Shown: piece after piece, positions 3,166-40,484 of the stretch
Numbering within the stretch: position 1 is the stretch's first letter
Layout: every line of letters begins with the position of its first letter
Source of the DNA: a virus
Direction: 5' to 3' (one strand)
IMG/VR virus record: IMGVR_UViG_3300009551_000077
Coordinates: 1 to 40,484 of that record
Length of the DNA stretch: 40,484 nucleotides
Program-made: the position numbers and the translations under genes
Notes under the pieces: model-generated
What the model was told of the DNA's origin: nothing
Seen by the model: only the letters and a program-made list of their open reading frames with translations
The model's database searches: none

Positions 3166-4625
3166 TGATCCCGTTCGCGCCATTCCTACCCGATCTGGCC
3201 GCGCTGAATGCCAATGCTTCCTTCACGGCGACGAATGTTGCACCGTCAGGGGCTGGCTTCCTGCCGGTCAGTGGGTTTGCAAGCGTCTCCAATACGCTCA
3301 CGGCCCGCGCGCAGGGTGCCATCTCGGTGCGTGGCCTGTCTGGCACCATCCACAACTTCTGTGGCGATGCGACGAAGCTCTACAAGCTCGATAGCACGGG
3401 CACCACGTGGAGTGATGTCACCCGCGCATCTGGCGGCGCTTATGCCACGGCCTCGGATGGCTGGTGGGATTTTACGCTATTCGGCGACCGTGTGGTGGCA
3501 ACGAATGGCGTTGATGCCGTGCAGGTGTTCCAGCTTGACGTGGACAGCAAGTTCTCGGCTTTGGCCGGCTCACCTCCGGTCAGTTCATTCACCGGCAACG
3601 TGCGCGACTTCGCCATTCTGGCACGTGGTTCGGCCAACTGGAACCGCATCCGCTGGAGCGCCATCAACAACGTTGCTGATTGGGTGGCTTCGTCCACTAC
3701 CATGAGCGACTATCAGGACTTCCCTGATGGCGGCACTGTCATGGGATTTGTCGGCGGTGAGTTTGGCATCGTGCTACTCGAGCGCGCCATCTACCGCATG
3801 GCCTTTGAAGGCCCTCCGACCGTATTCCGCTTCGACCGCATTGCAAACACCCTTGGCTGCCGCGTCGAGCGTTCTATCGCTGCCTACAATGACCTGATGT
3901 TCTTCCTGTCCAACGACGGGTTTTACATGATCCAAGGCGGCTCGCAGATCACGCCGATTGGTATCGACAAGGTGGACCGCACGTTTGAAGCCGAGTTCCA
4001 GGCTTCATTGCCTTACCTGTGCAGCGCCGCGATTGACCCGATCAAGAAGCTCTACCTGTTCGCCTATCCGGGCAATGGTGCATCGACCGCCGCGAATACC
4101 ATCCTCTGCTATCACTGGCCGACCGGGCAATGGTCGAAGATTTCAGCCGATGTCGAGATTATCTATGCTGCTGCCACGCAGTCAGGCACCACGTTCGACA
4201 ACTTCGCCAACCTCGATACGCTGCCTTATGCGATTGACAGCCGTGTCTATACCGGCTCCGGGCACTTGCTTCTGGCCGCGTTCGATACCACGAAGGCGCT
4301 GGGATATTTCAGTGGGCCAAACCTCGCTGCCACGATTGAGACGGGCGACACGCAGTTGACACCGGGGCGAAAATCCCTGCTGCGCTCACTGCGTCCGATG
4401 ATCGACGGAAATACCGTCAATACGACTAACACCGTCCGCAGCCGTGACAATCTGGACGACACTTACACTGATGCCATGCCGGTGACAGTCAATTCGATTG
4501 GCACATGCCCGGTTCGCGTCAATGCCCGCTATCACCGTGCGCGCCTCACCATTCCGGCTGCTGCCAACTGGAACTTTGCCATGGGTCTTGATGACCCCGA
4601 TTTCACCGCGACAGGGACACGATGA
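3165..4625 (+). CDS. Packaged-DNA stabilisation / tail hub protein (P22 gp10-like)
   Basis: A 486-aa, beta-rich protein. Repeated short strands with aromatic turns (TATASDGWWDFTLFGDRVVATNG, WNRIRWSAINNVADW, ILCYHWPTGQWSK) suggest the beta-propeller of gp10-type stabilisation proteins that plug the portal-adaptor channel after packaging. It follows the adaptor gene with a one-base overlap (TGATG at 3163-3167). TTG 3162 is also in frame, but ATG 3165 follows a purine-rich GGGG site. Family assignment rests on context and repeat style rather than a catalytic motif. Confidence 0.7.
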   Translation: MIPFAPFLPDLAALNANASFTATNVAPSGAGFLPVSGFASVSNTLTARAQGAISVRGLSGTIHNFCGDATKLYKLDSTGTTWSDVTRASGGAYATASDGWWDFTLFGDRVVATNGVDAVQVFQLDVDSKFSALAGSPPVSSFTGNVRDFAILARGSANWNRIRWSAINNVADWVASSTTMSDYQDFPDGGTVMGFVGGEFGIVLLERAIYRMAFEGPPTVFRFDRIANTLGCRVERSIAAYNDLMFFLSNDGFYMIQGGSQITPIGIDKVDRTFEAEFQASLPYLCSAAIDPIKKLYLFAYPGNGASTAANTILCYHWPTGQWSKISADVEIIYAAATQSGTTFDNFANLDTLPYAIDSRVYTGSGHLLLAAFDTTKALGYFSGPNLAATIETGDTQLTPGRKSLLRSLRPMIDGNTVNTTNTVRSRDNLDDTYTDAMPVTVNSIGTCPVRVNARYHRARLTIPAAANWNFAMGLDDPDFTATGTR

Positions 4626-11850: not shown

Positions 11851-13134
11851 ATGCCCCCAGATTTCGGGAACGCGACCGTATTCTCTCAAACCGACTCCAG
11901 CAATACGACCGCCACAGATCCAGGCTTTCCTGACGGGCTTGCTGGTTCCCGCGCAAAAACTGCCATGCGAGCCTTGCAGGGTGCAGCCAAGCGCTTTCGT
12001 GACCATCGGTCTTATACTGTAACCTCCGCTGGTACTTCAAGCGTCCAGACGCTGACCTACTCGGTTACGCCTGATCTCCAGACCAATGACATATTCTGCT
12101 TCATTGCTGGCTTCGCTTGTCCGGGCGCTCATACGCTGAACGTCAATGCTATCGGCGCAAAATCTGTCAAGAAAATGGTGTCGGGTGCTTCGGCAGACCC
12201 CGCTTCGGGCGATTGGGCGTCTGGCGACCACCTAATGTGTCGATATGATGGCACCAATATTGTGGTGCTTCAGGTCGGCGCGATCACTGCCGGTGCCACG
12301 GTCGGTTCCTCCACCATCAATATGACCTCCAAGGCCATCAATGAGGCCAAGGGCGCATCGGTGGCATCGGCTTCCACGGCTGACATCTGGACGCCGGCTG
12401 ATGGTAATTTCGTCCACATCACCGGTACCACGACCATCACCAGCCTTGGCACAGCACCACAGGCCGGCGCTGAACGCACGGTGGTTTTCGATGGTGCGCT
12501 GACGCTCACCTATAACGCAACAACCCTGATCCTGCCCAGCGCTGCCAACATCACCACGGCTGCCGGCGACACGATGGTTGTCCGGGCTGATACGACTGCC
12601 AATATGAAAGTCATCAGCTACACCAAGGCAGATGGCACATCGATTGTTGGCGCGGGCCCGGCCAAATCGCTCACGAATGCCACCACGTCCGGCACTACTG
12701 TCGATGTGACGCTTTCCGGCACTCCGAGCCGCATCATCGTGGCGCTCAACGGCGTGTCCGGGTCCAGCACGGGTGATCTATTCATCAGGCTTGGCACTGG
12801 TGGTGGCATCATATCCACGGGCTATGCCTCGTCGGCCCAGAGAACCACGACTGCCGCCACAACTGGTGTGGCTACCGTCACTACGGGCTTCCAGCTTACC
12901 AACGTTACGGTGGCTGCTGGCCTCTACTCCGGAACGATTATACTCCAGCACATCGGGGGAAACGTCTGGACTCAATCTGGTACGATTGGCTATCCGGCAG
13001 GCTCCATTGCTACCGTCGAGTTCCATCCGTCGTTCGGCAACGTCTCTCTCGGCGCTCAGGTCACGACCGTCCGCCTTGCCATCGGCTCAGGCAACTTCGA
13101 CGCAGGCTCGTTCTCAGTCACATGGGATCAGTAA
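11851..13134 (+). CDS. Tail fibre / receptor-binding protein
   Basis: 427 aa, beta-rich and dominated by Thr, Ser, Gly, Ala and Val. The N-terminus (FGNATVFSQTDSSNTTATDPGFPDGLAGSRAKTAMRALQGAAKRF) is the type of virion-attachment segment seen in short fibres. The rest consists of repeated strands (TITSLGTAP, AERTVVFDGALTLTYN, TVDVTLSGTPSRIIVALNGVSG, VATVTTGFQLTNVTV) that can build a trimeric beta fold. The position after ejection genes and before lysis genes is classic for a fibre. No enzymatic motif and no reverse transcriptase or variable repeat were seen. Confidence 0.7.
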   Translation: MPPDFGNATVFSQTDSSNTTATDPGFPDGLAGSRAKTAMRALQGAAKRFRDHRSYTVTSAGTSSVQTLTYSVTPDLQTNDIFCFIAGFACPGAHTLNVNAIGAKSVKKMVSGASADPASGDWASGDHLMCRYDGTNIVVLQVGAITAGATVGSSTINMTSKAINEAKGASVASASTADIWTPADGNFVHITGTTTITSLGTAPQAGAERTVVFDGALTLTYNATTLILPSAANITTAAGDTMVVRADTTANMKVISYTKADGTSIVGAGPAKSLTNATTSGTTVDVTLSGTPSRIIVALNGVSGSSTGDLFIRLGTGGGIISTGYASSAQRTTTAATTGVATVTTGFQLTNVTVAAGLYSGTIILQHIGGNVWTQSGTIGYPAGSIATVEFHPSFGNVSLGAQVTTVRLAIGSGNFDAGSFSVTWDQ

Positions 13135-13137
13135 GCC

Positions 13138-13398
13138 ATGAGCAACACTCCTGCTTGGACTGATCTCATTCAAGCCCTTTGGCCCATCTTTGCCGTGATG
13201 GCTGGCTGGATAGCTTGGACAATCTGGTGGGCCGCTACGGCTCAGTCAGACATTAGCGCCCTCAAGGAATCGGCAAAGAACACCGCCAATCATTCCGGCG
13301 AAATCATGCTCATCAAACAGACACTCGAGAACCTGACCGAGAAGGTCGGGGAACTGATTGATGAGCTTCGTTCCCCTCGTAACCGTCCCCGCAAATAG
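13138..13398 (+). CDS. Small membrane protein with coiled coil, holin candidate
   Basis: 86 aa. One Trp-rich membrane segment near residues 12-34 (ALWPIFAVMAGWIAWTIWWAA) is followed by a charged heptad-like helix (DISALKESAKNTANHSGEIMLIKQTLENLTEKVGELIDEL) and a basic tail. This build is common in phage lysis cassettes, either as a one-TM holin or an accessory. It is placed between the fibre and the endolysin, with only 3 nt after the fibre stop. Which of the membrane proteins here is the holin cannot be settled from sequence. Confidence 0.65.
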   Translation: MSNTPAWTDLIQALWPIFAVMAGWIAWTIWWAATAQSDISALKESAKNTANHSGEIMLIKQTLENLTEKVGELIDELRSPRNRPRK

Positions 13399-13408
13399 GA
13401 GCTACCAC

Positions 13409-13717
13409 ATGAAGGCTATTCACTGGCTTCTGCCAGCCCTTGTGCTTGCGTTTGTCTCACCTGCACATGCCGATTTCGTTCCGAAAGTGGGGCAGATGTT
13501 CTGCGCCTCCGATGAGGAAATGAACTCGTTTCTGAACACCAATGCCATGCGTAAGGCCTTCGAGGCCACTTCCGGTTCTGAAGGGCAGAACCTTGGCGAG
13601 CTTTGGATCAATCTCGACACGCATCTGTGGCTGATGGTCCAGCGTATCACGGCTGAGAAAATCTCATGCGTGGTGGTTGGCGGGACCCAGTACACATCGA
13701 CGGGGCTTGCCATCTGA
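13409..13717 (+). CDS. Exported protein with signal peptide, lysis-region
   Basis: 102 aa. A clear Sec signal (MKAIHWLLPALVLAFVSPAHA, likely cleavage after AHA at residue 21) is followed by a soluble domain of about 80 aa with two cysteines (MFCAS, ISCVVV) that could form a disulfide in the periplasm. I chose ATG 13409 because AGGAG lies 8 nt upstream and the signal begins there; in-frame starts further up lie inside the preceding gene. The stop overlaps the endolysin start (TGATG). No lipobox, so it is not a typical outer-membrane spanin. Function unknown. Confidence 0.7.
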   Translation: MKAIHWLLPALVLAFVSPAHADFVPKVGQMFCASDEEMNSFLNTNAMRKAFEATSGSEGQNLGELWINLDTHLWLMVQRITAEKISCVVVGGTQYTSTGLAI

Positions 13718-14562
13718 TGCTCTGGCCTCTCCAATCTCAATGCGATGCCTTCTATGGCAACCCGCGCGGCTCCAACGGGCAGGCTTCCACGCTCTGGAAG
13801 CTTCGCAACCTCACCACGGTCAAAGCCCCCTTTGTGATGCGCTACGCGGGCCAGCCCATCAAGGGCGTTACCATCCATCGCAAATGCGCTGCCAGCCTTG
13901 CGCGCGTGTTCCAGGCGATCTGGATTGCATCCGGCAAGTCTCAGGCGGTCATTGACAAGTGGGGCGTCTCGACCTTCGGCGGCTCGTTCAACTTCCGCCC
14001 GATGCGCGGTTCCACGCACCTGTCCATGCACAGCTACGGCTGTGCCATCGACCTCGACCCAACCCATCACCAGATGACACATGGCTCGGCGCTGTTCGAC
14101 CCCCGCGTCATCAAGGCCTTTGCGGACGAAGGCTGGGTGAACCTCCCCAACGACCGCATGCACTTTCAGGCAGCCCGGCTTTCGGGCGCGCCTGTTTCAC
14201 TGACTGCCAAACCTCAACCCATCATCGGAGAACCTGCAATGGCTACTGCCACCAACAAAGTTGTGAACGTCAACACCCTGAATATCGGCTCTATCGGCGC
14301 AATCGCCGCGGCTCTGGGCTACATCCTGCCGAAAGCCGTTGAACTCTACGGAACCAACGGCCTCGTCGCTGCTGGCGTCCTTGTCGTCGGCTGCCTCATC
14401 CAGTTCTTCATGCCCCCGGCGACCGCCAAGGCCATAGAAAACGCTGTGATTGCGGCTATCCCGGTCGCTGAAGCTCTTGCGCCGGCCTACAAGGCTGATC
14501 TCGAAGCTGCAAAGACTGGCCTGCAGACGGCTGAAACCGTCGTCATTCCCCCGAGCGCCTAA
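13717..14562 (+). CDS. M15-type peptidase endolysin fused to a two-helix membrane domain
   Basis: 281 aa. Residues 1-165 are a zinc peptidase of the VanY/M15 group: SMHSYGCAIDLD (103-114) supplies the S-x-H-x(2)-G-x-A-x-D motif with zinc ligands H105 and D112, and the third histidine is in DRMHFQ (H149). This cleaves peptide stems of peptidoglycan. Residues 175-281 are unlike an endolysin: a short polar lead, hydrophobic helices at about 190-208 (NIGSIGAIAAALGYILPKA) and 216-233 (GLVAAGVLVVGCLIQFFM), then an Ala-rich amphipathic tail. Residue 175 is a Met with its own GGAG site, so the membrane part may also be made alone (see 14239-14562). ATG 13717 overlaps the previous stop. Confidence 0.8.
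   Translation: MLWPLQSQCDAFYGNPRGSNGQASTLWKLRNLTTVKAPFVMRYAGQPIKGVTIHRKCAASLARVFQAIWIASGKSQAVIDKWGVSTFGGSFNFRPMRGSTHLSMHSYGCAIDLDPTHHQMTHGSALFDPRVIKAFADEGWVNLPNDRMHFQAARLSGAPVSLTAKPQPIIGEPAMATATNKVVNVNTLNIGSIGAIAAALGYILPKAVELYGTNGLVAAGVLVVGCLIQFFMPPATAKAIENAVIAAIPVAEALAPAYKADLEAAKTGLQTAETVVIPPSA
14239..14562 (+). CDS. Nested in-frame holin-like protein (internal start of the endolysin gene)
   Basis: An internal ATG at 14239, in the same frame as the endolysin, is preceded by GGAG (14227-14230) with 8 nt spacing. It would give a 107-aa protein (MATATNKVVNVNTLNIGSIG...) with two membrane helices and a helical C-terminus, the usual architecture of a class II holin or a membrane anchor. The upstream peptidase ends about 10 residues before this Met. 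Either the gene makes two products, or the lysin is membrane-tethered by a fused anchor. Dual translation is inferred from the ribosome site only. Confidence 0.5.
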   Translation: MATATNKVVNVNTLNIGSIGAIAAALGYILPKAVELYGTNGLVAAGVLVVGCLIQFFMPPATAKAIENAVIAAIPVAEALAPAYKADLEAAKTGLQTAETVVIPPSA

Positions 14563-14564
14563 CC

Positions 14565-14831
14565 ATGAGCGCCGGCATTGGGGCAATCATCATCGTTCTG
14601 GTGGTGGTTGCCCTTGGCATCGTGCTGTACCGCATGACCACGCCCAGCTTTGTGGTTGGGCTGGTTGCGGCTGCATTCAAGGCTGTTATTCCCGCTCTGC
14701 TCAAGTCGTCGCCACATTCGAAAGAGTATTGGGACACCTTGCACGAGCGCGACATGGCAACCAGCCGTACCGCGCGCCAAAACCTTGATGACAAGCTGAA
14801 GGAAATCGAAGCGAAAGAGCGCTCTCGGTGA
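14565..14831 (+). CDS. Small inner-membrane protein, spanin or holin candidate
   Basis: 88 aa. N-terminal membrane helix (IGAIIIVLVVVALGIVLY, residues about 5-22), a second weakly hydrophobic stretch (FVVGLVAAAFKAVIPALL, 29-46), then a charged helix to the C-terminus (EYWDTLHERDMATSRTARQNLDDKLKEIEAKERSR). An N-terminal anchor with a charged periplasmic helix fits an i-spanin; two helices would fit a holin. It begins 2 nt after the endolysin stop. No overlapping o-spanin lipoprotein was found. Confidence 0.6.
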   Translation: MSAGIGAIIIVLVVVALGIVLYRMTTPSFVVGLVAAAFKAVIPALLKSSPHSKEYWDTLHERDMATSRTARQNLDDKLKEIEAKERSR

Positions 14832-15004
14832 CCACAGCGCCAGCATCCGAACTCGACAGCGCCATGCTGACCGACATTGAGGCTCTCGTGCGCAAGTTCA
14901 TAGACTTCCATGAGAGCTACGGTGCTGACAATGCCGAGGGCGTGATTGCTGGCCTGATTAACCTGTGCGCCCAGCTAGAGGGCAAAGGCGAGACGGTTCA
15001 GTGA
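14828..15004 (+). CDS. Small acidic protein, function unknown
   Basis: 58 aa from a GTG start that overlaps the preceding stop as GTGA; the stop overlaps the next GTG in the same way. The sequence is largely helical (SAMLTDIEALVRKFIDFHESYGADNAEGVIAGLINLCAQLEGKGE). The chain of GTGA overlaps and the lack of any other open frame here support it as real. No family recognised. Confidence 0.65.
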   Translation: MTTAPASELDSAMLTDIEALVRKFIDFHESYGADNAEGVIAGLINLCAQLEGKGETVQ

Positions 15005-15252
15005 AGCGGAAACGCAAGATCAAGATCGTCCTGAAGCCTCTCACCCAGGCGTGGGGATACGCCTACGACAAGGACCGCGAGATCGAACTCGACAACCGCA
15101 TGGACGACAGAACCATGCTGTCCACGGCCTCGCATGAAGTCCTGCACATCATTTTCCCATGGCTTGAAGAATTTGCCGTTGATGAAGCTGGCGAGGAAAT
15201 CGCTGACGTTCTTCACCGGCTTGGCTTCCGGCGCGAACCCGACGAGGAATAA
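15001..15252 (+). CDS. Mini zinc-metalloprotease-like protein (HExxH)
   Basis: 83 aa from GTG 15001, overlapping the previous stop as GTGA. An in-frame ATG at 14965 lies inside the previous gene and is less likely. A basic start (VKRKRKIKIVLKPL) is followed by a strand and then SHEVLH at residues 44-49, an HExxH zinc-binding helix. Acidic residues downstream (LEEFAVDEAGEEIADVL) could give the third ligand. Its size and layout resemble minimal SprT/gluzincin-like domains. The next gene begins at the last base of its stop (TAATG). Protease activity is inferred from the motif alone. Confidence 0.6.
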   Translation: MKRKRKIKIVLKPLTQAWGYAYDKDREIELDNRMDDRTMLSTASHEVLHIIFPWLEEFAVDEAGEEIADVLHRLGFRREPDEE

Positions 15253-16421
15253 TGACAGTCATTGACGAGTCACTGAAGCAATGGGCCACGCCACGCCAAG
15301 CCGAAATCGTGGATGCCGTGAACCGGGAAGGCTCCCAGCGTCAGGCTGCTGTCGCTCTGGGCGTCCACCCCAGCAACGTTGACCACGCTCTGGCGGCGCT
15401 CCGGCGCAAGGCTGCCATAGCTGGCTATGCTCCAGAGAACGACATGACGAAGCCTGTTCCTTCTCCCTACGTCGTCAAGGGCACAAGCACCCTCTATGAC
15501 AAGGAAGGCAACCAGGCCCTGCAATGGGTCAAAACCAGCCTCGACAAGGAACGGTTCGAGGAGGTTCTGAAGGAATATATCTCGTGGCTGACACAAGACG
15601 CCCGCGGCGTTGCCAAGGTCACGCCACAGCCCAAATTCAGCGATACCGACACGCTGGCCGTCTATGGCATTGGTGATCCCCATCTGGGCATGCACTCATG
15701 GGGGAAGGAAACCGGGGCGGATTTTGACCTTGCTGAAGCCGAACGCCTCAACTGTGCTGCCTTTGACCGCCTCCTGACCTCAGCGCCAGCCAGCGAGACG
15801 GCCCTGATCTGTGAAGTTGGCGATCTGCTTCATGCCGACAACAACAGCAACCGAACGCCAGCCAGCGGCAATACCCTCGATGTGGACAGCCGGCACTCCA
15901 AGGTGATGATGGTTGCGGTTCGCATGATCCGGCACATGATCGGCAAAGCCCTCACCAAGCACCAAAAGGTGATCTTCTGGGGCATCAGCGGCAACCATGA
16001 TCCGCACTCATCCTTCGCGGTAAATCTCGTTCTGGCAGCCTTCTATGAGAACGAGCCGCGTGTTGAAATCAATCTCTCCCCCAGCCCTTACAAGATGCTG
16101 GTATTCGGCAAGGTGTTCATCGGATCCGTTCATGGCGATGGGGCAAAGATGGCAGACCTGCCCGGTGTATTCTCACGAGACTTCCGCAAGGAATGGGGCG
16201 AGACGATCTACAGCTATATCTATACAGGCCACATTCATCACGACAGCCGGAAAGAGTTCGGCGGATGCATTGTGGAAAGCCTCAGAACAATGGCGCCGGC
16301 CGATGCCTGGCATCATCGAGCAGGCTACAGGGCAGGGCGAGATATGAGGGTTGTGGTGCATCACCGCAATTTTGGCGAGATTGAACGGCATACTGCAAAC
16401 GTTGCGATGGTGAACCAGTGA
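15252..16421 (+). CDS. Metallophosphoesterase with N-terminal helix-turn-helix
   Basis: 389 aa. Residues about 12-58 form a helix-turn-helix (ATPRQAEIVDAVNREGSQRQAAVALGVHPSNVDHALAALRR). Residues from 135 are a calcineurin-like phosphoesterase with every metal-binding motif: GDPHLG (D142, H144), GDLLHAD (D191), GNHD (248-250), GSVHGD (H294) and GHIHH (H327, H329). The dimetal site cleaves phosphodiesters, so with the DNA-binding head a nuclease acting on DNA is plausible. It sits near the end of the late operon and overlaps the next gene by GTGA. Substrate unknown. Confidence 0.8.
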   Translation: MTVIDESLKQWATPRQAEIVDAVNREGSQRQAAVALGVHPSNVDHALAALRRKAAIAGYAPENDMTKPVPSPYVVKGTSTLYDKEGNQALQWVKTSLDKERFEEVLKEYISWLTQDARGVAKVTPQPKFSDTDTLAVYGIGDPHLGMHSWGKETGADFDLAEAERLNCAAFDRLLTSAPASETALICEVGDLLHADNNSNRTPASGNTLDVDSRHSKVMMVAVRMIRHMIGKALTKHQKVIFWGISGNHDPHSSFAVNLVLAAFYENEPRVEINLSPSPYKMLVFGKVFIGSVHGDGAKMADLPGVFSRDFRKEWGETIYSYIYTGHIHHDSRKEFGGCIVESLRTMAPADAWHHRAGYRAGRDMRVVVHHRNFGEIERHTANVAMVNQ

Positions 16422-34011: not shown

Positions 34012-35293
34012 AACCGCTCCCGTCTTTGCCCCTCTGATTAAGCCATCCCGCTACAAGGGTGCATATGGCGGACGCGGTTCGGGCAAGTCACAGTTCTTCT
34101 CAGGCCTCCTGCCTGAATATGCCATGGCCCAACGGGGCTTTCGCGGCGTATGCATCCGTGAAGTCCAGAAATCCCTCAAGGAAAGCGCCAAGCGCCTCAT
34201 AGAGGACCAGCTGGCTAAATACGGTTTGGGCGAGGCAGACGGCTTCAAGGTATTCCGCGAGGTCATCCAGACGCCAGGTGACGGCCTGATCATCTTTCAG
34301 GGCATGGCCGATCACACGGCTGAATCCATCAAGTCGCTCGAAGGTATCGACGTGGCATGGGTGGAGGAGGCGCAAAGCCTGTCCGCCCGGTCGTTGCAGC
34401 TTCTGCGCCCCACAATCCGCAAGGATAACTCGGAAATCTGGTTCAGCTGGAACCCAAGGCGCAAGACAGACCCAGTCGATGTGATGCTCCGGGGCAGGGA
34501 AGTGCCGACCGACGCTGTAACGGTCAGGGCCAACTGGTCAGATAATCCGTGGTTCCCCAGTGTGCTTGAACAGGAGCGGCTCGACTGCCTGCGTTCGCAG
34601 CCTGATCAATACCCCCACACATGGGAAGGCGAATATGCCACCGTGCTGACCGGGGCCTACTACGCCAAACAATTGGCTGAAGCCAAGCTTCAGGGCCGCA
34701 TTGGCCGTGTTGCCGCTGACCCGCTGCTTCCTATTCGGCTTGTTGCTGATATTGGTGGCACTGGCCGTCTTTCAGACAGCTTCGTGTTCTGGGCAGTGCA
34801 GTTTGTAGGGCGTGAAATTCGCTGGCTCAATCATTACGAGGCGCAAGGTCAGGAAGTAGGCCATCACCTCAATTGGATGCGTGCCAACAAATACGAGCCA
34901 GACCGCGCCAAGGTCGTGCTGCCACATGACGGTTCAAAGCCCGGAGATGTCTACCGTATTTCATACAAATCGGCGTTCGAGGACGCTGGCTATGATGTTG
35001 ATGTGATCGAAAACCAAGGCGCTGGCGCTGCCATGCTCCGAGTGGAAGCTCTAAGGCGCGTGTTCCCGCTCTGCTGGTTCAACGCCGATACAACTCAGGG
35101 CGGCCTTGATGCTTTGGGCTGGTATCATGAGAAAGTGGACGAGACGCGGAACATCGGCCTCGGCCCTGACCATGACTGGTCAAGCCATTCGTCGGATGCA
35201 GCCGGCCTTGTCGCAGTTGTTTACGAAGCGCCCGAGATAGCACGCAAGGTAGTTCACCGCACCTATCACGGTGCAGGAAGCTGGATGGCATAA
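33992..35293 (+). CDS. terL: Terminase large subunit
   Basis: 433 aa, the packaging motor ATPase and headful nuclease. Walker A GGRGSGKS (26-33, K32) and Walker B VAWVEEA (121-127, E125 or E126) are in the N-terminal ATPase. The RNase H-like nuclease starts at LVADIGGTGRLSD (D253, D262) and ends near HSSDAAG. The circular permutation of the genome agrees with headful packaging. TTG 33992 is the only plausible start in frame with the homologous N-terminus (STLQIETAPVFAPL); it overlaps the small subunit gene. Confidence 0.92.
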   Translation: MSTLQIETAPVFAPLIKPSRYKGAYGGRGSGKSQFFSGLLPEYAMAQRGFRGVCIREVQKSLKESAKRLIEDQLAKYGLGEADGFKVFREVIQTPGDGLIIFQGMADHTAESIKSLEGIDVAWVEEAQSLSARSLQLLRPTIRKDNSEIWFSWNPRRKTDPVDVMLRGREVPTDAVTVRANWSDNPWFPSVLEQERLDCLRSQPDQYPHTWEGEYATVLTGAYYAKQLAEAKLQGRIGRVAADPLLPIRLVADIGGTGRLSDSFVFWAVQFVGREIRWLNHYEAQGQEVGHHLNWMRANKYEPDRAKVVLPHDGSKPGDVYRISYKSAFEDAGYDVDVIENQGAGAAMLRVEALRRVFPLCWFNADTTQGGLDALGWYHEKVDETRNIGLGPDHDWSSHSSDAAGLVAVVYEAPEIARKVVHRTYHGAGSWMA

Positions 35294-37493
35294 TCCCACC
35301 ACCATTCATCGCTGTGAAGCGATTAAGGACCACAAATTGGCCGATAAAGACATTCTCGAAGATGAAGTCGAAGCCTTTGAAGCTGCCGTAGAAGCGGAAA
35401 CCGAAAACCGCAACCGGGCGCTGGAGTCTTTGCGCTTCAATCGCCTCGGCGACCAGTGGCCTGAGAAGATCAAGCAGGACCGCATTCTGGCACAGCGTCC
35501 TGTGTTGACGCTCAACCATGCGCCGGCCTTCATTCGCCAGGTTGTCAATGACAGCCGCATGAACCGTCCGCAAATCACAGTCAAACCCGTGGATAGCGGA
35601 GCCGATATTGCCACGGCCAATGTCTACAAGGGCCTGATCAAGACTATCGAGACGCAGTCCAAGGCTGACATTGCCTATGACACGGCGGTTGATTTCGCTG
35701 CCTCCATGGGCTTTGGCTATTTGCAGGTTGCCATCGAATACGAGTTTGATGACTCGTTCGACAAGGGCCTGCGCATCAAGGCCGTGGAGAATCCCTTCAG
35801 CGTCTATGGCGATCCGTTTGCCAAGGGTGCTGACAGCTCGGAATGGAACAAGGCTTTCGTCACCGACCTGATGACGATTGACGACTTCAACGGCAAGTAC
35901 AAGGGCGCAGAGCAGGTTGATTGGACCTCCAGCGGCTATGACTCGCTCAAGATGCCGTGGCGCGAGGAGAACCAGATCCTCATTGCCGAAAGCTGGTCCC
36001 GCGAGGAAGTGCCACGCACCATCCTGCTGCTCAGTAATGGGCAGGTGGTAGGCGAAGATCAGTACAAGGCCGGCATGGATTATTTCATGCAGATGGGCAT
36101 CACGGTCCAAAGCTCCCGCTTGTCCAAGTCTCATAAGGTCACGCAGCGTATCATGACCGGCGCTGAAGTTCTGGAGGAGAACGACTGGGCAGGCCGCTAT
36201 ATCCCGATCATTCCCGTCTATGGCGAGGAAGTGAACGTTGAGGGCAAGCGCCATTTCTTCTCGCTGACCCATCACGCCATGGATGCCATGCGGATGCACA
36301 ACTACTGGCGCACCACGGCAACCGAGGTTGTCGCCTTGGCCCCGCGCATGCCTTTCATTGGTGAAGAAGGCGCTTTCGACGTTGATACCGAGAAGTGGCA
36401 GACCGCCAACACTGAGAACTGGTCCTATGTCCAGTACAAGAAGGGCAAGCAGCCCCCCATGCGTCAGCCGATTGACTCGACAGGCGCTGCCGGTTCGATG
36501 CAGCAAGCCATGGCTGCCGTAGATGACATGAAGGCCATCATTGGCATGTACGATGCCAGCCTTGGCAATCGCTCCAATGAGACCTCCGGCGTTGCCATCA
36601 ACAGCCGCAAGCATGAAGGCGATGTATCGACCTATCACATTCAGGACAACCTCTCGCGCGCCATCCGGCATGTGGGCGTTGTCCTCACCGATCTTATTCC
36701 GCTGGTCTATTCCAACCGCCAAGTGATCCGCATCCTGGGCGACGATGGCACGGAAACCACTGTGAAGCAGGGGCCGCGCCCCGAAGGCCAGCCGGCACAG
36801 CCTCCCATGCCCACGCCACAGCAGAAAATGCACGGTGCCAATGCCCAGCCACTCGTCCATCCAAATGGACAGGAACACATCTACGATCTTGGCGTGGGCA
36901 AGTATGACATTGTGGTCGATACCGGTCCTAGCTTCACCACCCGCCGCGAGCAGATCGCGCAGGAAATGATGGCGTTCCTGAAGGCTTTCCCGCAGGCAGC
37001 GCCTGTCGTGGGCGACATCTTCGTCAAGGAACTCGACTGGCCACAGGGCGAGGAAATTGCCGACCGCCTCAAGGCCATGCTGCCCCCGCAAGCTGCCGGA
37101 GGCTTGCCGCCTGAAGTCCAGAGCATGATGCAGGACGGCCAGAAGATGATCGGCATGCTCCAGCAGAAGGTCCAGCAGGCCACGCAGGAGAACTCGGTCC
37201 TGAAGGCCCAGAGCCAGATCAAGGACCAGGTCCACGCCCTCGAACTGGAAAAGAAAGACGTTGAACTCAAGAAAGTCACCGCCGTGCACGCCGTCCAGAA
37301 CGCGATGCCGGAACCGCAGGTCGCTGATCCCGGCTTCGGACCAGACCAATATTCAGAAGCCCTCCAAAACGCGGGCGCTCTCCAGATCGACGCTTACGAC
37401 GCCGAAACCAAACGCATCGTGGGACTGGCGCAAGCCCACTCTCTGATGAACCCGCAGCCCAAGCCTGTGCCTTCCACACCCAAAGGAGCCTGA
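35271..37493 (+). CDS. P22-type portal protein
   Basis: 740 aa. N-terminal DNLSR-type body: EAFEAAVEAETENRNRALESLRFNRLGDQWPEKIKQDRILAQRPVLTLNHAPAFIRQVVNDSRMNRPQITVKP is diagnostic for P22-like portals, as is the later SNETSGVAINSRKHEGDVSTYHIQDNLSRAIRHVG. The C-terminal 170 residues form a long coiled barrel (QSMMQDGQKMIGMLQQKVQQATQENSVLKAQSQIKDQVHALELEKKDVEL). The dodecameric portal is the channel for DNA and senses head fullness. GTG 35271 overlaps the terminase end by 23 bp. Confidence 0.9.
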   Translation: MQEAGWHNPTTIHRCEAIKDHKLADKDILEDEVEAFEAAVEAETENRNRALESLRFNRLGDQWPEKIKQDRILAQRPVLTLNHAPAFIRQVVNDSRMNRPQITVKPVDSGADIATANVYKGLIKTIETQSKADIAYDTAVDFAASMGFGYLQVAIEYEFDDSFDKGLRIKAVENPFSVYGDPFAKGADSSEWNKAFVTDLMTIDDFNGKYKGAEQVDWTSSGYDSLKMPWREENQILIAESWSREEVPRTILLLSNGQVVGEDQYKAGMDYFMQMGITVQSSRLSKSHKVTQRIMTGAEVLEENDWAGRYIPIIPVYGEEVNVEGKRHFFSLTHHAMDAMRMHNYWRTTATEVVALAPRMPFIGEEGAFDVDTEKWQTANTENWSYVQYKKGKQPPMRQPIDSTGAAGSMQQAMAAVDDMKAIIGMYDASLGNRSNETSGVAINSRKHEGDVSTYHIQDNLSRAIRHVGVVLTDLIPLVYSNRQVIRILGDDGTETTVKQGPRPEGQPAQPPMPTPQQKMHGANAQPLVHPNGQEHIYDLGVGKYDIVVDTGPSFTTRREQIAQEMMAFLKAFPQAAPVVGDIFVKELDWPQGEEIADRLKAMLPPQAAGGLPPEVQSMMQDGQKMIGMLQQKVQQATQENSVLKAQSQIKDQVHALELEKKDVELKKVTAVHAVQNAMPEPQVADPGFGPDQYSEALQNAGALQIDAYDAETKRIVGLAQAHSLMNPQPKPVPSTPKGA

Positions 37494-37971: not shown

Positions 37972-38871
37972 ATGGAAGAACTACCCGGAACTACCCCTGA
38001 GCCAACCATCGCGCAGGAGGTTCCCCAAACGCCCCCGAATGAAGCCCCCGAAGCCGATGAGCCTGACAGTCTTGAACCCCAAGACGACGCTGGCGAATCC
38101 CCGGAGCCTGAGTTTGAGGAAGTGGACTTCAGCGGCAAGAAGTATTCGATCCCGAAGGAACTTGCCCCGATCATTGCGAAGGCTGAAAACCTTGAAGCAG
38201 GCGTTACCAAACGCTTCCAGGAGGCAGCCGAGGTTCGCAAGACCTATGAAGCCCAGTTGCAGACGTTCCAGCGTGAACAGCAGGTCAATTTCGAACTCAG
38301 CAAGGAAATGGCCCAGCTTACGGGCGTGGAACAGCGTCTCGCCCAGCTCCAGCAAGTAGACTGGCAGGCTTGGCAGGCGCAGAACCCGCAGGCGGCTAAC
38401 GCCGCCATGGCGGAACTCGTGCAGCTGCAAAGCGCACACCAGAATCTTCGCGGACACGTTGAGAGCCGCAAAGCCGAGATTGGAGCTATTCAGGAGCAGC
38501 GTGCTGCGACCCAGATTAGCCAAGCCATCGAAGCACTCAGCAAGCCCGATCCTGAAAAAGGATGGGCAGGTAAATTCGACGCAGCAACGCGCGAAGGTCT
38601 AACCAAGTTTGGCAAAGAGATCGGGTACTCGGACGAAGAACTCCGAAACACCACGCATCCTCTGATGATCAAGACGTTGAACCTCGCCCGCATTGGCCTG
38701 GAGTCACTCAAAAAGCAGAAAGCAGCGGCCACCGCACCAAAGGTGAGCGCCGAACCCGTTCCCACAATCCAGTCAGGCAAGTCGAAGGCGACCGTCAAGG
38801 ATCCCAATCGCATGAGCATGGCCGAATTTACGAAATGGCGTGAGGAGTCGATCCGCAAACGCGGTCGCTAA
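37972..38871 (+). CDS. Scaffolding protein
   Basis: 299 aa. A Pro/Glu-rich acidic N-terminus (PGTTPEPTIAQEVPQTPPNEAPEADEPDSLEPQDDAGE) leads into EEVDFSGKKYSIPKELAPIIAKAENLEAGVTKRFQEAAEVRKTYEAQLQTF, a long coiled-coil middle and a basic C-terminus (EFTKWREESIRKRGR) that probably binds the coat protein, as P22 scaffold does through its helix-loop-helix end. It lies directly before the coat gene. Confidence 0.85.
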   Translation: MEELPGTTPEPTIAQEVPQTPPNEAPEADEPDSLEPQDDAGESPEPEFEEVDFSGKKYSIPKELAPIIAKAENLEAGVTKRFQEAAEVRKTYEAQLQTFQREQQVNFELSKEMAQLTGVEQRLAQLQQVDWQAWQAQNPQAANAAMAELVQLQSAHQNLRGHVESRKAEIGAIQEQRAATQISQAIEALSKPDPEKGWAGKFDAATREGLTKFGKEIGYSDEELRNTTHPLMIKTLNLARIGLESLKKQKAAATAPKVSAEPVPTIQSGKSKATVKDPNRMSMAEFTKWREESIRKRGR

Positions 38872-38886
38872 ACCCAACCACGGACC

Positions 38887-38899
38887 CGTCGTGATGACG
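38887..38899 (+). other. Repeated hairpin before the coat gene
   Basis: CGTC-GTGAT-GACG, identical in 13 bases to 37922-37934, sits 29 nt before the coat ATG. The repeat at two head-gene leaders suggests a shared role such as mRNA stabilisation or processing. Confidence 0.4.
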
Positions 38900-38927
38900 A
38901 GGGCCTATCCCTTGAGGACATGCCAAA

Positions 38928-40130
38928 ATGGCAAATACCCTTCTTACTCCCACCATTATCACGAAGGAGACCTTGCGCGTTCTTCACGCCAGCCTCCCCT
39001 TCATCAAGTCGATCAACACCGAATACGATTCCTCGTTCGCCAAGACCGGCGCGAAGATCGGTTCGACCCTCACCATCCGCAAGCCGAACCAGTACACGGT
39101 TCGTAACGGCGCGGTGATGAACGTGCAGGATACGACCGAACCCTCGACCACGCTGACCGTCAACACCCAGAAGGGTGTCGACATGAACTTCACCTCGCAG
39201 GACTTGACGCTGACCATCGACCAGTTCAGCCAGCGTTACATCCAGCCGGCCATGAAGGTTCTCGCCGCCGCCATCGAAAACGACGCGTTCTCGATGATCA
39301 AGGACATCTACCAGACCGCCGCGCAGTCCACCATCACGTCCTCGCTGACCTTCGCGACCGTGCTGAATGGCCGCAAGAAGCTGGTGGACTCTCTGGTGCC
39401 TCCGGGTGACCTGACCGCCGTGATGCCGACGCAGAACAACGTCGATCTCGTGGACGTTCTGAAAGCTCTCTTCCAGTCTGGTCCTCAGTTGAAGGAACAG
39501 TATGAAGAAGGCCTGATGGGCTACGCCGCCGGCTTCGGCTTCAAGGAATCGACCATCATTCCGAAGTTCACCTCCGGCACGGAAACCGCCTCGGGCACCA
39601 TTACGGTGAACCAGTCGGGTGCAACCGGCTCCTCGGTGACCGTCACCAACGGTTCCTCCAAGACCCTGAAGGCTGGTGACATCATCACCTTCGTGGGTTG
39701 CAACCGCTGCCACCCGGAAACCAAGGCCGACACTGGCGTTCTGCAACAGTTCGTTGTGACCGCTGACGTTGCCACCTCGGGCACCACGATCAACATCTCT
39801 CCGTCGATCGTGACCTCTGGCGCAAGCCAGAACGTGACGGCTTCTCCGACCAACTCGCAGGCCATCACCAAGGTGGGCGGCGCGTCGGGCATCCGTGACG
39901 AAATGCTCCTGTTCCATCGTGACGCCTTCACGCTCGCCACGGCTGACTTGATCATGCCGAACGGGCTGCACTTCTCGGGCCGCGATAACCAGGACGGCAT
40001 CTCGATCCGTATGCTCCAGCAGTACGACATCAACAACGACCGCATGCCGACCCGTATCGACGTCTTGTATGGCTACAAGACGCTGCGCCCGGAACTGGCT
40101 TGCCGCGTTGCCTCGAACTCCACCGCGTAG
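38928..40130 (+). CDS. Major capsid protein (P22 gp5-like, HK97 fold)
   Basis: 400 aa. MANTLLTPTIITKETLRVLHASLPFIKSINTEYDSSFAKTGAKIGSTLTIRKPNQYTVRNGA and RYIQPAMKVLAAAIENDAFSMIKDIYQ are typical of the P22 coat family. The stretch from about 215 to 300 (SGTITVNQSGATGSSVTVTNGSSKTLKAGDIITFVGCNRCHPETKADTGVLQQFVVTADV) is a beta insertion in the position of the P22 I-domain. It builds the icosahedral shell on the scaffold. Codon use shows a strong bias to C/G-ending codons, fitting high expression. GAGG about 11 nt before ATG 38928. Confidence 0.92.
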   Translation: MANTLLTPTIITKETLRVLHASLPFIKSINTEYDSSFAKTGAKIGSTLTIRKPNQYTVRNGAVMNVQDTTEPSTTLTVNTQKGVDMNFTSQDLTLTIDQFSQRYIQPAMKVLAAAIENDAFSMIKDIYQTAAQSTITSSLTFATVLNGRKKLVDSLVPPGDLTAVMPTQNNVDLVDVLKALFQSGPQLKEQYEEGLMGYAAGFGFKESTIIPKFTSGTETASGTITVNQSGATGSSVTVTNGSSKTLKAGDIITFVGCNRCHPETKADTGVLQQFVVTADVATSGTTINISPSIVTSGASQNVTASPTNSQAITKVGGASGIRDEMLLFHRDAFTLATADLIMPNGLHFSGRDNQDGISIRMLQQYDINNDRMPTRIDVLYGYKTLRPELACRVASNSTA

Positions 40131-40138
40131 TCGTGAGC

Positions 40139-40156
40139 GGGGAGCTTCGGCTCCCC
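40139..40156 (+). terminator. Hairpin after the coat gene
   Basis: Perfect stem GGGGAGC (40139-40145) / GCTCCCC (40150-40156) with a TTCG tetraloop, 8 nt after the coat stop. A following T tract is poor, so it may protect the coat mRNA 3' end or give partial termination rather than full. Confidence 0.65.
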
Positions 40157-40193
40157 CTCCCTCCGTTTCAACCTTCATCCAAGGATAACCCCA

Positions 40194-40430
40194 ATGGCTA
40201 TTGGTAAATTTCTCTCTGACTTGAATCCCGGCGGAACGTCCGTCGGCCAGACTACCGCAGACCTTATTGCGATGTATGGCGGCACGCCGGTTTCCCAGCG
40301 TTCCAACTCCATCCAGGCCGCTTCGGTCGTGTCTGTTTCTTCCAACATCACCATCGCGGCCTCTCTGACCGCATGGATTGTGGAAGTCACCGCCACGCTG
40401 ACCGGCCTCGGCCTGTGGAAGGGCGCTTAA
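40194..40430 (+). CDS. Small beta-rich protein after the coat gene
   Basis: 78 aa: AIGKFLSDLNPGGTSVGQTTADLIAMYGGTPVSQRSNSIQAASVVSVSSNITIAASLTAWIVEVTATLTGLGLWKGA. AAGGAT lies before ATG 40194. The hydrophobic, Ser/Thr-rich C-terminal half could be beta or membrane-associated. Likely a minor head protein. Its last 22 residues are also at 1-69 because the circle is opened there. Confidence 0.65.
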   Translation: MAIGKFLSDLNPGGTSVGQTTADLIAMYGGTPVSQRSNSIQAASVVSVSSNITIAASLTAWIVEVTATLTGLGLWKGA

Positions 40431-40484
40431 CAGCATCAATCGCGGGGCTGCTTTGGTGGCCCCGTTTTCCCTTCAACAATCAAA
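40362..40484. repeat. Terminal direct repeat, right copy
   Basis: Identical to 1-123; evidence for circular closure (see the left copy). Confidence 0.93.
40443..40468 (+). terminator. Terminator, right-end copy
   Basis: The same hairpin as 82-107 (CGGGGC / GCCCCG, then TTTT), located in the repeated end. Confidence 0.75.

Follow-up and report, generated by a model that had tools for sequence, protein, structure and literature searches.

We identified a phage gene in which an M15-type endolysin continues, without a stop codon, into a domain with two hydrophobic segments, and in which an exceptional in-frame start signal lies at the beginning of the membrane domain (Table 1). The gene is found in a stretch of 40,484 nucleotides (IMG/VR virus record IMGVR_UViG_3300009551_000077, positions 1 to 40,484; called the window here), and its counterpart is present in a second phage, L006. 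Host lysis usually is a hand-over between two proteins: a holin opens the membrane and an endolysin passes through. We propose, at a probability of about 0.58, that both a tethered lysin and a free holin-like protein, the latter predicted to act like a class II holin, are made from this one gene.

Table 1. Positions of the fused gene, its parts and its immediate surroundings in the window
Feature	Position	Strand	Evidence
Upstream-gene stop overlapping the full-length start (TGATG)	13715..13719	+	Sequence; SD at full-length start -5.0
Fused gene, M15 endolysin and two-segment membrane domain, 281 aa and stop	13717..14562	+	Open frame; same fusion in L006
M15 peptidase domain, aa 1-154	13717..14178	+	Pfam PF13539, PHROG 17001, profile match to 2vo9
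SMHSYGCAID, SxHxxGxAxD zinc-site motif, aa 103-112	14023..14052	+	Residues invariant in 13 aligned rows
DRMH, DxxH motif, aa 146-149	14152..14163	+	D146 and H149 the same in all 13 aligned rows
Linker of 20 codons containing Pro; overlaps the region of internal initiation	14179..14238	+	Third-position GC 0.40; L006 linker of 25 codons
GGAG, Shine-Dalgarno-like (SD) site of internal start	14227..14230	+	SD energy -6.6, best in-frame start of gene
Holin-like two-segment domain; putative free 107-aa product from ATG 14239	14239..14562	+	Hydropathy, joint start test, slot in relatives
First hydrophobic segment (limits approximate)	14278..14331	+	Hydropathy
Second hydrophobic segment (limits approximate)	14359..14412	+	Hydropathy
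Following gene (88 aa, one membrane segment), a cassette neighbour marking the slot	14565..14831	+	Resembles L026 and L124 genes

The two domains of the fused protein

The preliminary description had read this gene as an M15 peptidase running stop-free into a two-helix membrane domain, which agrees with the 281 open codons, the matches to PF13539 and PHROG 17001 and the two hydrophobic segments; its coordinates (open reading frame, motifs, GGAG site and internal ATG) are all correct. The N-terminal part is predicted to be an endolysin of the M15 (VanX/VanY, LAS) peptidase type: PF13539 scores 28.1 bits over aa 98-151 (cut-off 25), PHROG 17001 ('endolysin') matches aa 3-155 with an E-value of 5.6e-23, and among known structures the family profile matches those of the endolysins Ply500 (2vo9, E 3.6e-6) and LysB4 (6akv, E 1.2e-4). 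S103, H105, G108, A110, D112, D146 and H149 are invariant in 13 aligned rows, and the motif aligns with that of 2vo9; SxHxxGxAxD and DxxH together are what we take to be the M15 zinc/catalytic motif, ligand roles included (the MHFQ string is aa 148-151). A structure model has block-mean pLDDT values of 68-97 over residues 1-160. Among its VIA rows, Hedgehog, LdcB, VanX and VanY have Z values of 6-8 and 2vo9 has 5.7, too low to be decisive alone, and its top Foldseek row is VanX (E 0.073).

Residues 175-281 contain the two hydrophobic segments and, after them, a tail for which a helix is predicted at low confidence, and both structure models give the membrane part low confidence. By hydropathy the predicted 107-aa product is a small protein with two membrane segments, as class II holins are. 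Charges on the N side, loop and C side of the segments (+1, 0, 0 in the window; 0, 0, -2 in L006) do not fix a topology. Pfam and PHROG searches with the membrane domain gave no match to a holin family, and its assignment to a described holin was dropped.

The internal start

Met175 had been singled out before for its GGAG site, and this is borne out by the sequence: the site lies 8 nt from the ATG at 14239, which is codon 175. SD energies, computed with one scheme throughout (spacing 4-12 nt), are -6.6 at the internal site vs -5.0 at the full-length start in the window, and -8.2 vs -3.0 in L006, so that in both genes the internal ATG is the top-scoring in-frame start. By SD alone the site is moderate among all plus-strand ATGs of the window (31 out of 749 equal or beat it), and only one of 144 internal in-frame ATGs in 16 other long window ORFs has an energy at least as good. 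The local mRNA is open at both internal starts (-10.4 in the window, where the background averages -19.0, and -3.1 vs -17.9 in L006). When SD strength and open mRNA are required jointly, two out of 749 plus-strand ATGs remain in the window (14239 itself and 30874, a predicted gene start) and one out of 142 in L006 (3535 itself); these are ranks and not independent probabilities, because the thresholds were taken from the sites themselves. Third-position GC drops from 0.81 in the M15 part to 0.40 in the linker (from 0.71 to 0.48 in L006), which fits an initiation region. We conclude that 14239, like the internal ATG of L006, carries the features expected where translation is initiated, and a second start signal of this strength suggests that the same gene may also make the membrane piece alone.

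The same fusion in a second phage

L006 (IMG/VR contig 3300015076_000006, 42 kb) encodes a fused protein of 282 aa that is 53% identical to that of the window across its whole length. Its internal Met179 has AAAAGGAG upstream of the ATG at 3535, a stronger signal than in the window. Three window genes have relatives around the L006 fusion: the one at 11851 (local score 760 vs a shuffle maximum of 149), the one starting at 14828 (72 vs 41) and the one starting at 14965 (318 vs 49); the window gene at 13138 has no comparable similarity to the L006 gene with which it was compared (score 25 vs a shuffle maximum of 45). An Rz1-like spanin is encoded just downstream of the L006 fusion (PHROG 1275, E 2.4e-4), which places the fusion in a lysis cassette.

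L006 is the only fused relative found besides the window. With the full-length query 165 phage records matched, and in none of them did the match reach 80% of the query. Searches with the membrane domain alone gave no fused relative or L006 only, phage records gave none, and the L006 protein retrieved itself and one short partial match. Among bacterial genomes a first scan found no fusion, and a second turned up 16 loci with M15, all of them lacking the fused two-helix form. In the M15 tree, the window and L006 form one supported group (99/97) with L123, L124 and L125, in which the two fused genes are not paired; forcing them into a pair costs 4.75 log units (AU p 0.06). A single fusion event, a fusion followed by loss, and two separate events are all possible origins.

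Separate peptidase and membrane genes in relatives

As the preliminary description had proposed, we compared relatives for separate and fused forms: the M15 peptidase mostly stands alone, and the fused form is shared with L006. The comparison covers 53 distinct M15 proteins, taken by a sequence pattern from 122 records (several of which are one contig at different flank lengths, and truncated copies drop out). Of 396 confirmed loci, 80 were kept. 40 out of 53 stop 2-4 residues after the match to the MHFQ region, one has a C-terminal extension without a hydrophobic segment, and 12 have an extension with such a segment (the two-helix proteins of the window and L006, and 10 with other insertions). 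An anchor at the C-terminus of an M15 peptidase had been called unusual; it is less so than that, given these 12 proteins and the published, unrelated endolysins with C-terminal transmembrane (TM) segments.

M15 lysins in which a region is inserted and one membrane segment lies at the C-terminus (L001, L071, L086-L091, L093, L096 and L126-L130) recur across alphaproteobacterial phages and prophages. In several of them basic residues follow the segment (by eye), hinting at an N-out, C-in orientation. The M15 gene of L096 has an internal ATG at codon 192 (SD -9.2), within the C-terminal extension rather than at its start.

Where the M15 gene is separate, a small two-segment ORF directly follows it in 33 out of 47 cases, vs 8 out of 188 control positions, at which other long ORFs of these loci end. 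Counted were ORFs of 45-120 aa with two hydrophobic segments and an SD, within 260 nt of an M15 gene; at least 400 nt of downstream sequence was required, which left 47 distinct genes, and thresholds for hydrophobicity and SD were applied. It is because of these thresholds that L123, with a 59-aa two-segment ORF visible by eye, is scored as a miss. The count of 33 is inflated by near-copies: after clustering at 70% identity, 14 out of 20 clusters have at least one such member, and in 11 out of 20 all members do. In most of the L007-L022 group the two-segment ORF is in frame with the peptidase and is set off from it by hardly more than a TAA-TAG pair. Next to the fusion lies gene 14565-14831, and it resembles the gene 3' of the separate two-segment gene in L026 and in L124 (p 0.0005 each; 2000 shuffles). 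Together, the slot counts and this likeness support the view that the fused domain stands where relatives have a separate holin-like gene with two segments, an equivalence by position only: hhalign of the fused domain against the separate two-segment proteins gave a probability of 0.5%, which does not demonstrate homology, and shuffle tests gave p values of 0.009 to 0.78 in 16 comparisons and 0.056 to 0.33 in six more.

Neighbouring genes and other features

The gene immediately upstream of the window fusion (13409-13717) has a product of 102 aa that seems, by eye, to carry a signal peptide and that has no match in phage records at E 0.01. Its stop overlaps the start of the fused gene, and this overlap likely couples the translation of the two genes. 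In L006 an ORF for a secreted serine protease of the trypsin type (L006:1956-2714; TAAHC and GSSGGG by eye) lies immediately upstream of the fused lysis gene, and no counterpart was seen in the window. A search for a spanin within 12900-15700 of the window gave no convincing lipobox ORF. Further downstream, a 95-aa ORF (14965-15252) has the sequence HEVLH (HExxH), is conserved at L006 4477 and is weakly similar to metallopeptidase families. Two long open frames on the minus strand (35079-37349, 756 aa; 38868-40439, 523 aa) run antisense to the genes for the portal and the major head protein and are probably a by-product of codon composition.

Possible products of the fused gene

By inference, the gene likely yields both products, with the shorter likely being a holin. 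Ribosomes finishing the upstream gene, whose TGA (13715-13717) overlaps the ATG at 13717, would start the 281-aa form, consisting of M15 endolysin, linker and a two-helix membrane hairpin, and other ribosomes would start independently at 14239 from the GGAG site and give the 107-aa hairpin protein on its own, which would act in the manner of a class II holin. Both forms would reside in the inner membrane with N- and C-termini in the cytoplasm, and the free form would outnumber the lysin-bearing form and dilute it in shared oligomers. Once these oligomers open, the tethered peptidase would reach the periplasm, delivered in cis, and cut the peptide part of peptidoglycan. More tentatively, and at somewhat less than even odds, we suggest that a phage of a Gram-negative (probably alphaproteobacterial) host encodes lysin and holin in a single gene whose in-frame starts are nested, which would make the lysin part of the membrane assembly that opens for it and let the ratio of starts set the lysis clock; a gene with two products would then be a compact means of timing host lysis. 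What remains of the interpretation first given for this gene is that the fusion is real and recurs in L006, that the internal start is marked and that the slot matches; the supposed rarity of the anchor is not supported, with 12 out of 53 relatives having one.

The best surviving alternative, which we consider unlikely, is that only the full-length protein matters: a membrane-anchored endolysin with the architecture of those of Siskin, Enc34 and M4Lys and a different catalytic domain, whose internal start is weak or unused, the holin being encoded by 13138-13398 or 14565-14831. Other small membrane genes do flank the fusion, C-terminal TM extensions recur in the M15 family, and the C-terminal TM is described as required for lysis in both M4Lys of phage BSPM4 (PMC7143992) and LysAP of Acidovorax phage AP1 (PMC8879335). 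The Siskin endolysin, with two such helices, is encoded by a gene whose best internal site scores only -3.3, with no start comparable to 14239, and therefore such an anchor works without one. However, the internal start of the fused gene is top-scoring in both phages and rare by the joint test, and the two-segment domain occupies the slot of a separate gene.

Less probable again is that the fusion arose when a stop codon was lost and the loss was tolerated; in that case the peptidase and the free two-segment protein from 14239 would do the work, with the tail on the peptidase neutral or clipped off. An open linker is unremarkable, being likely by chance (probability 0.54 in the window and 0.41 in L006), and changes in the linker by codon position (22, 9 and 22 of 28) have no third-position excess and no coding pattern. 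In most of the L007-L022 group the junction is a TAA stop, TAG, GAG, two codons and an ATG: the membrane gene shares the frame of the peptidase, and little beyond the TAA-TAG pair separates such a junction from a fusion. But the fusion has been kept in two phages at just 53% identity, whose linkers differ in length (20 and 25 codons) yet share one frame, and all 40 short-tailed relatives stop 2-4 codons past the motif. The remaining case is an assembly error, a sequencing error (near 14230, named at the outset as one that would overturn the finding) or a chimeric contig that removed a stop; although the window is an IMG/VR-type virus record and not an isolate, we set this aside as very unlikely because L006 has the same architecture at 53% identity.

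Comparison with known systems

The endolysin of Salmonella phage Siskin was announced as having two C-terminal TM helices with an N-in, C-in topology (PMC6498227), and a two-TM C-terminal endolysin has been studied in Hafnia phage Enc34 (PMC8943055). As described there, and for M4Lys, the catalytic domain is N-terminal, the membrane domain is C-terminal and an N-terminal signal is lacking, as in the fused gene; the two C-terminal TM segments of Siskin and Enc34 are also shared (by hydropathy in our case). Differences are that their catalytic domain is PHA02564 (named in PMC8943055), whereas that of the fused protein is M15, which places it outside the Siskin/Enc34 type, and that a separate holin gene precedes theirs in the descriptions cited. 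PMC8943055 leaves the tethered delivery of Enc34-type enzymes as a question in the part cited; if both products are made, a natural gene giving the holin-like part alone and fused would be a ready-made test of such delivery. LysAP resembles the fused gene in its C-terminal TM, needed for localisation as well as lysis, but it has an unrelated catalytic domain, one TM and a separate HolAP gene, and the cited portion of PMC8879335 mentions no internal start.

Endolysins with a homologous M15 domain and a C-terminal membrane segment (L071, L088, L090 and L126-L129) differ from the fused gene in having a further domain in between (PG_binding_1, by Pfam in L071 and by eye in the others), one TM segment and no equivalent start at the domain boundary.

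In-frame internal starts that give two-polypeptide endolysins are described for phages of Gram-positive bacteria (PMC9430671); examples are CTP1L, whose short product is the C-terminal part (PMC4777826), and the mycobacteriophage case of Ms6 lysA (PMC3111421). These share with the fused gene the layout of one gene, two in-frame start sites and a common stop, but their short product, as described, is a wall-binding or lysin part and not a membrane protein. The same strategy was judged unlikely in phages of Gram-negative hosts, because most of their lysins are single-domain (PMC9430671, as far as cited here); if the two-product explanation is true, the strategy extends to such phages. A natural translational fusion of holin and endolysin is reported for the TpeE family of Clostridium sporogenes (PMC9527704); there the holin comes first, the host is Gram-positive, and a free holin from an internal start is not mentioned in the cited part. 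Our literature searches brought up no endolysin gene from which a free membrane protein, or holin, is additionally made by starting internally. C-terminal anchors on endolysins are known, as are internal starts in endolysin genes of Gram-positive phages; what is new here is their combination.
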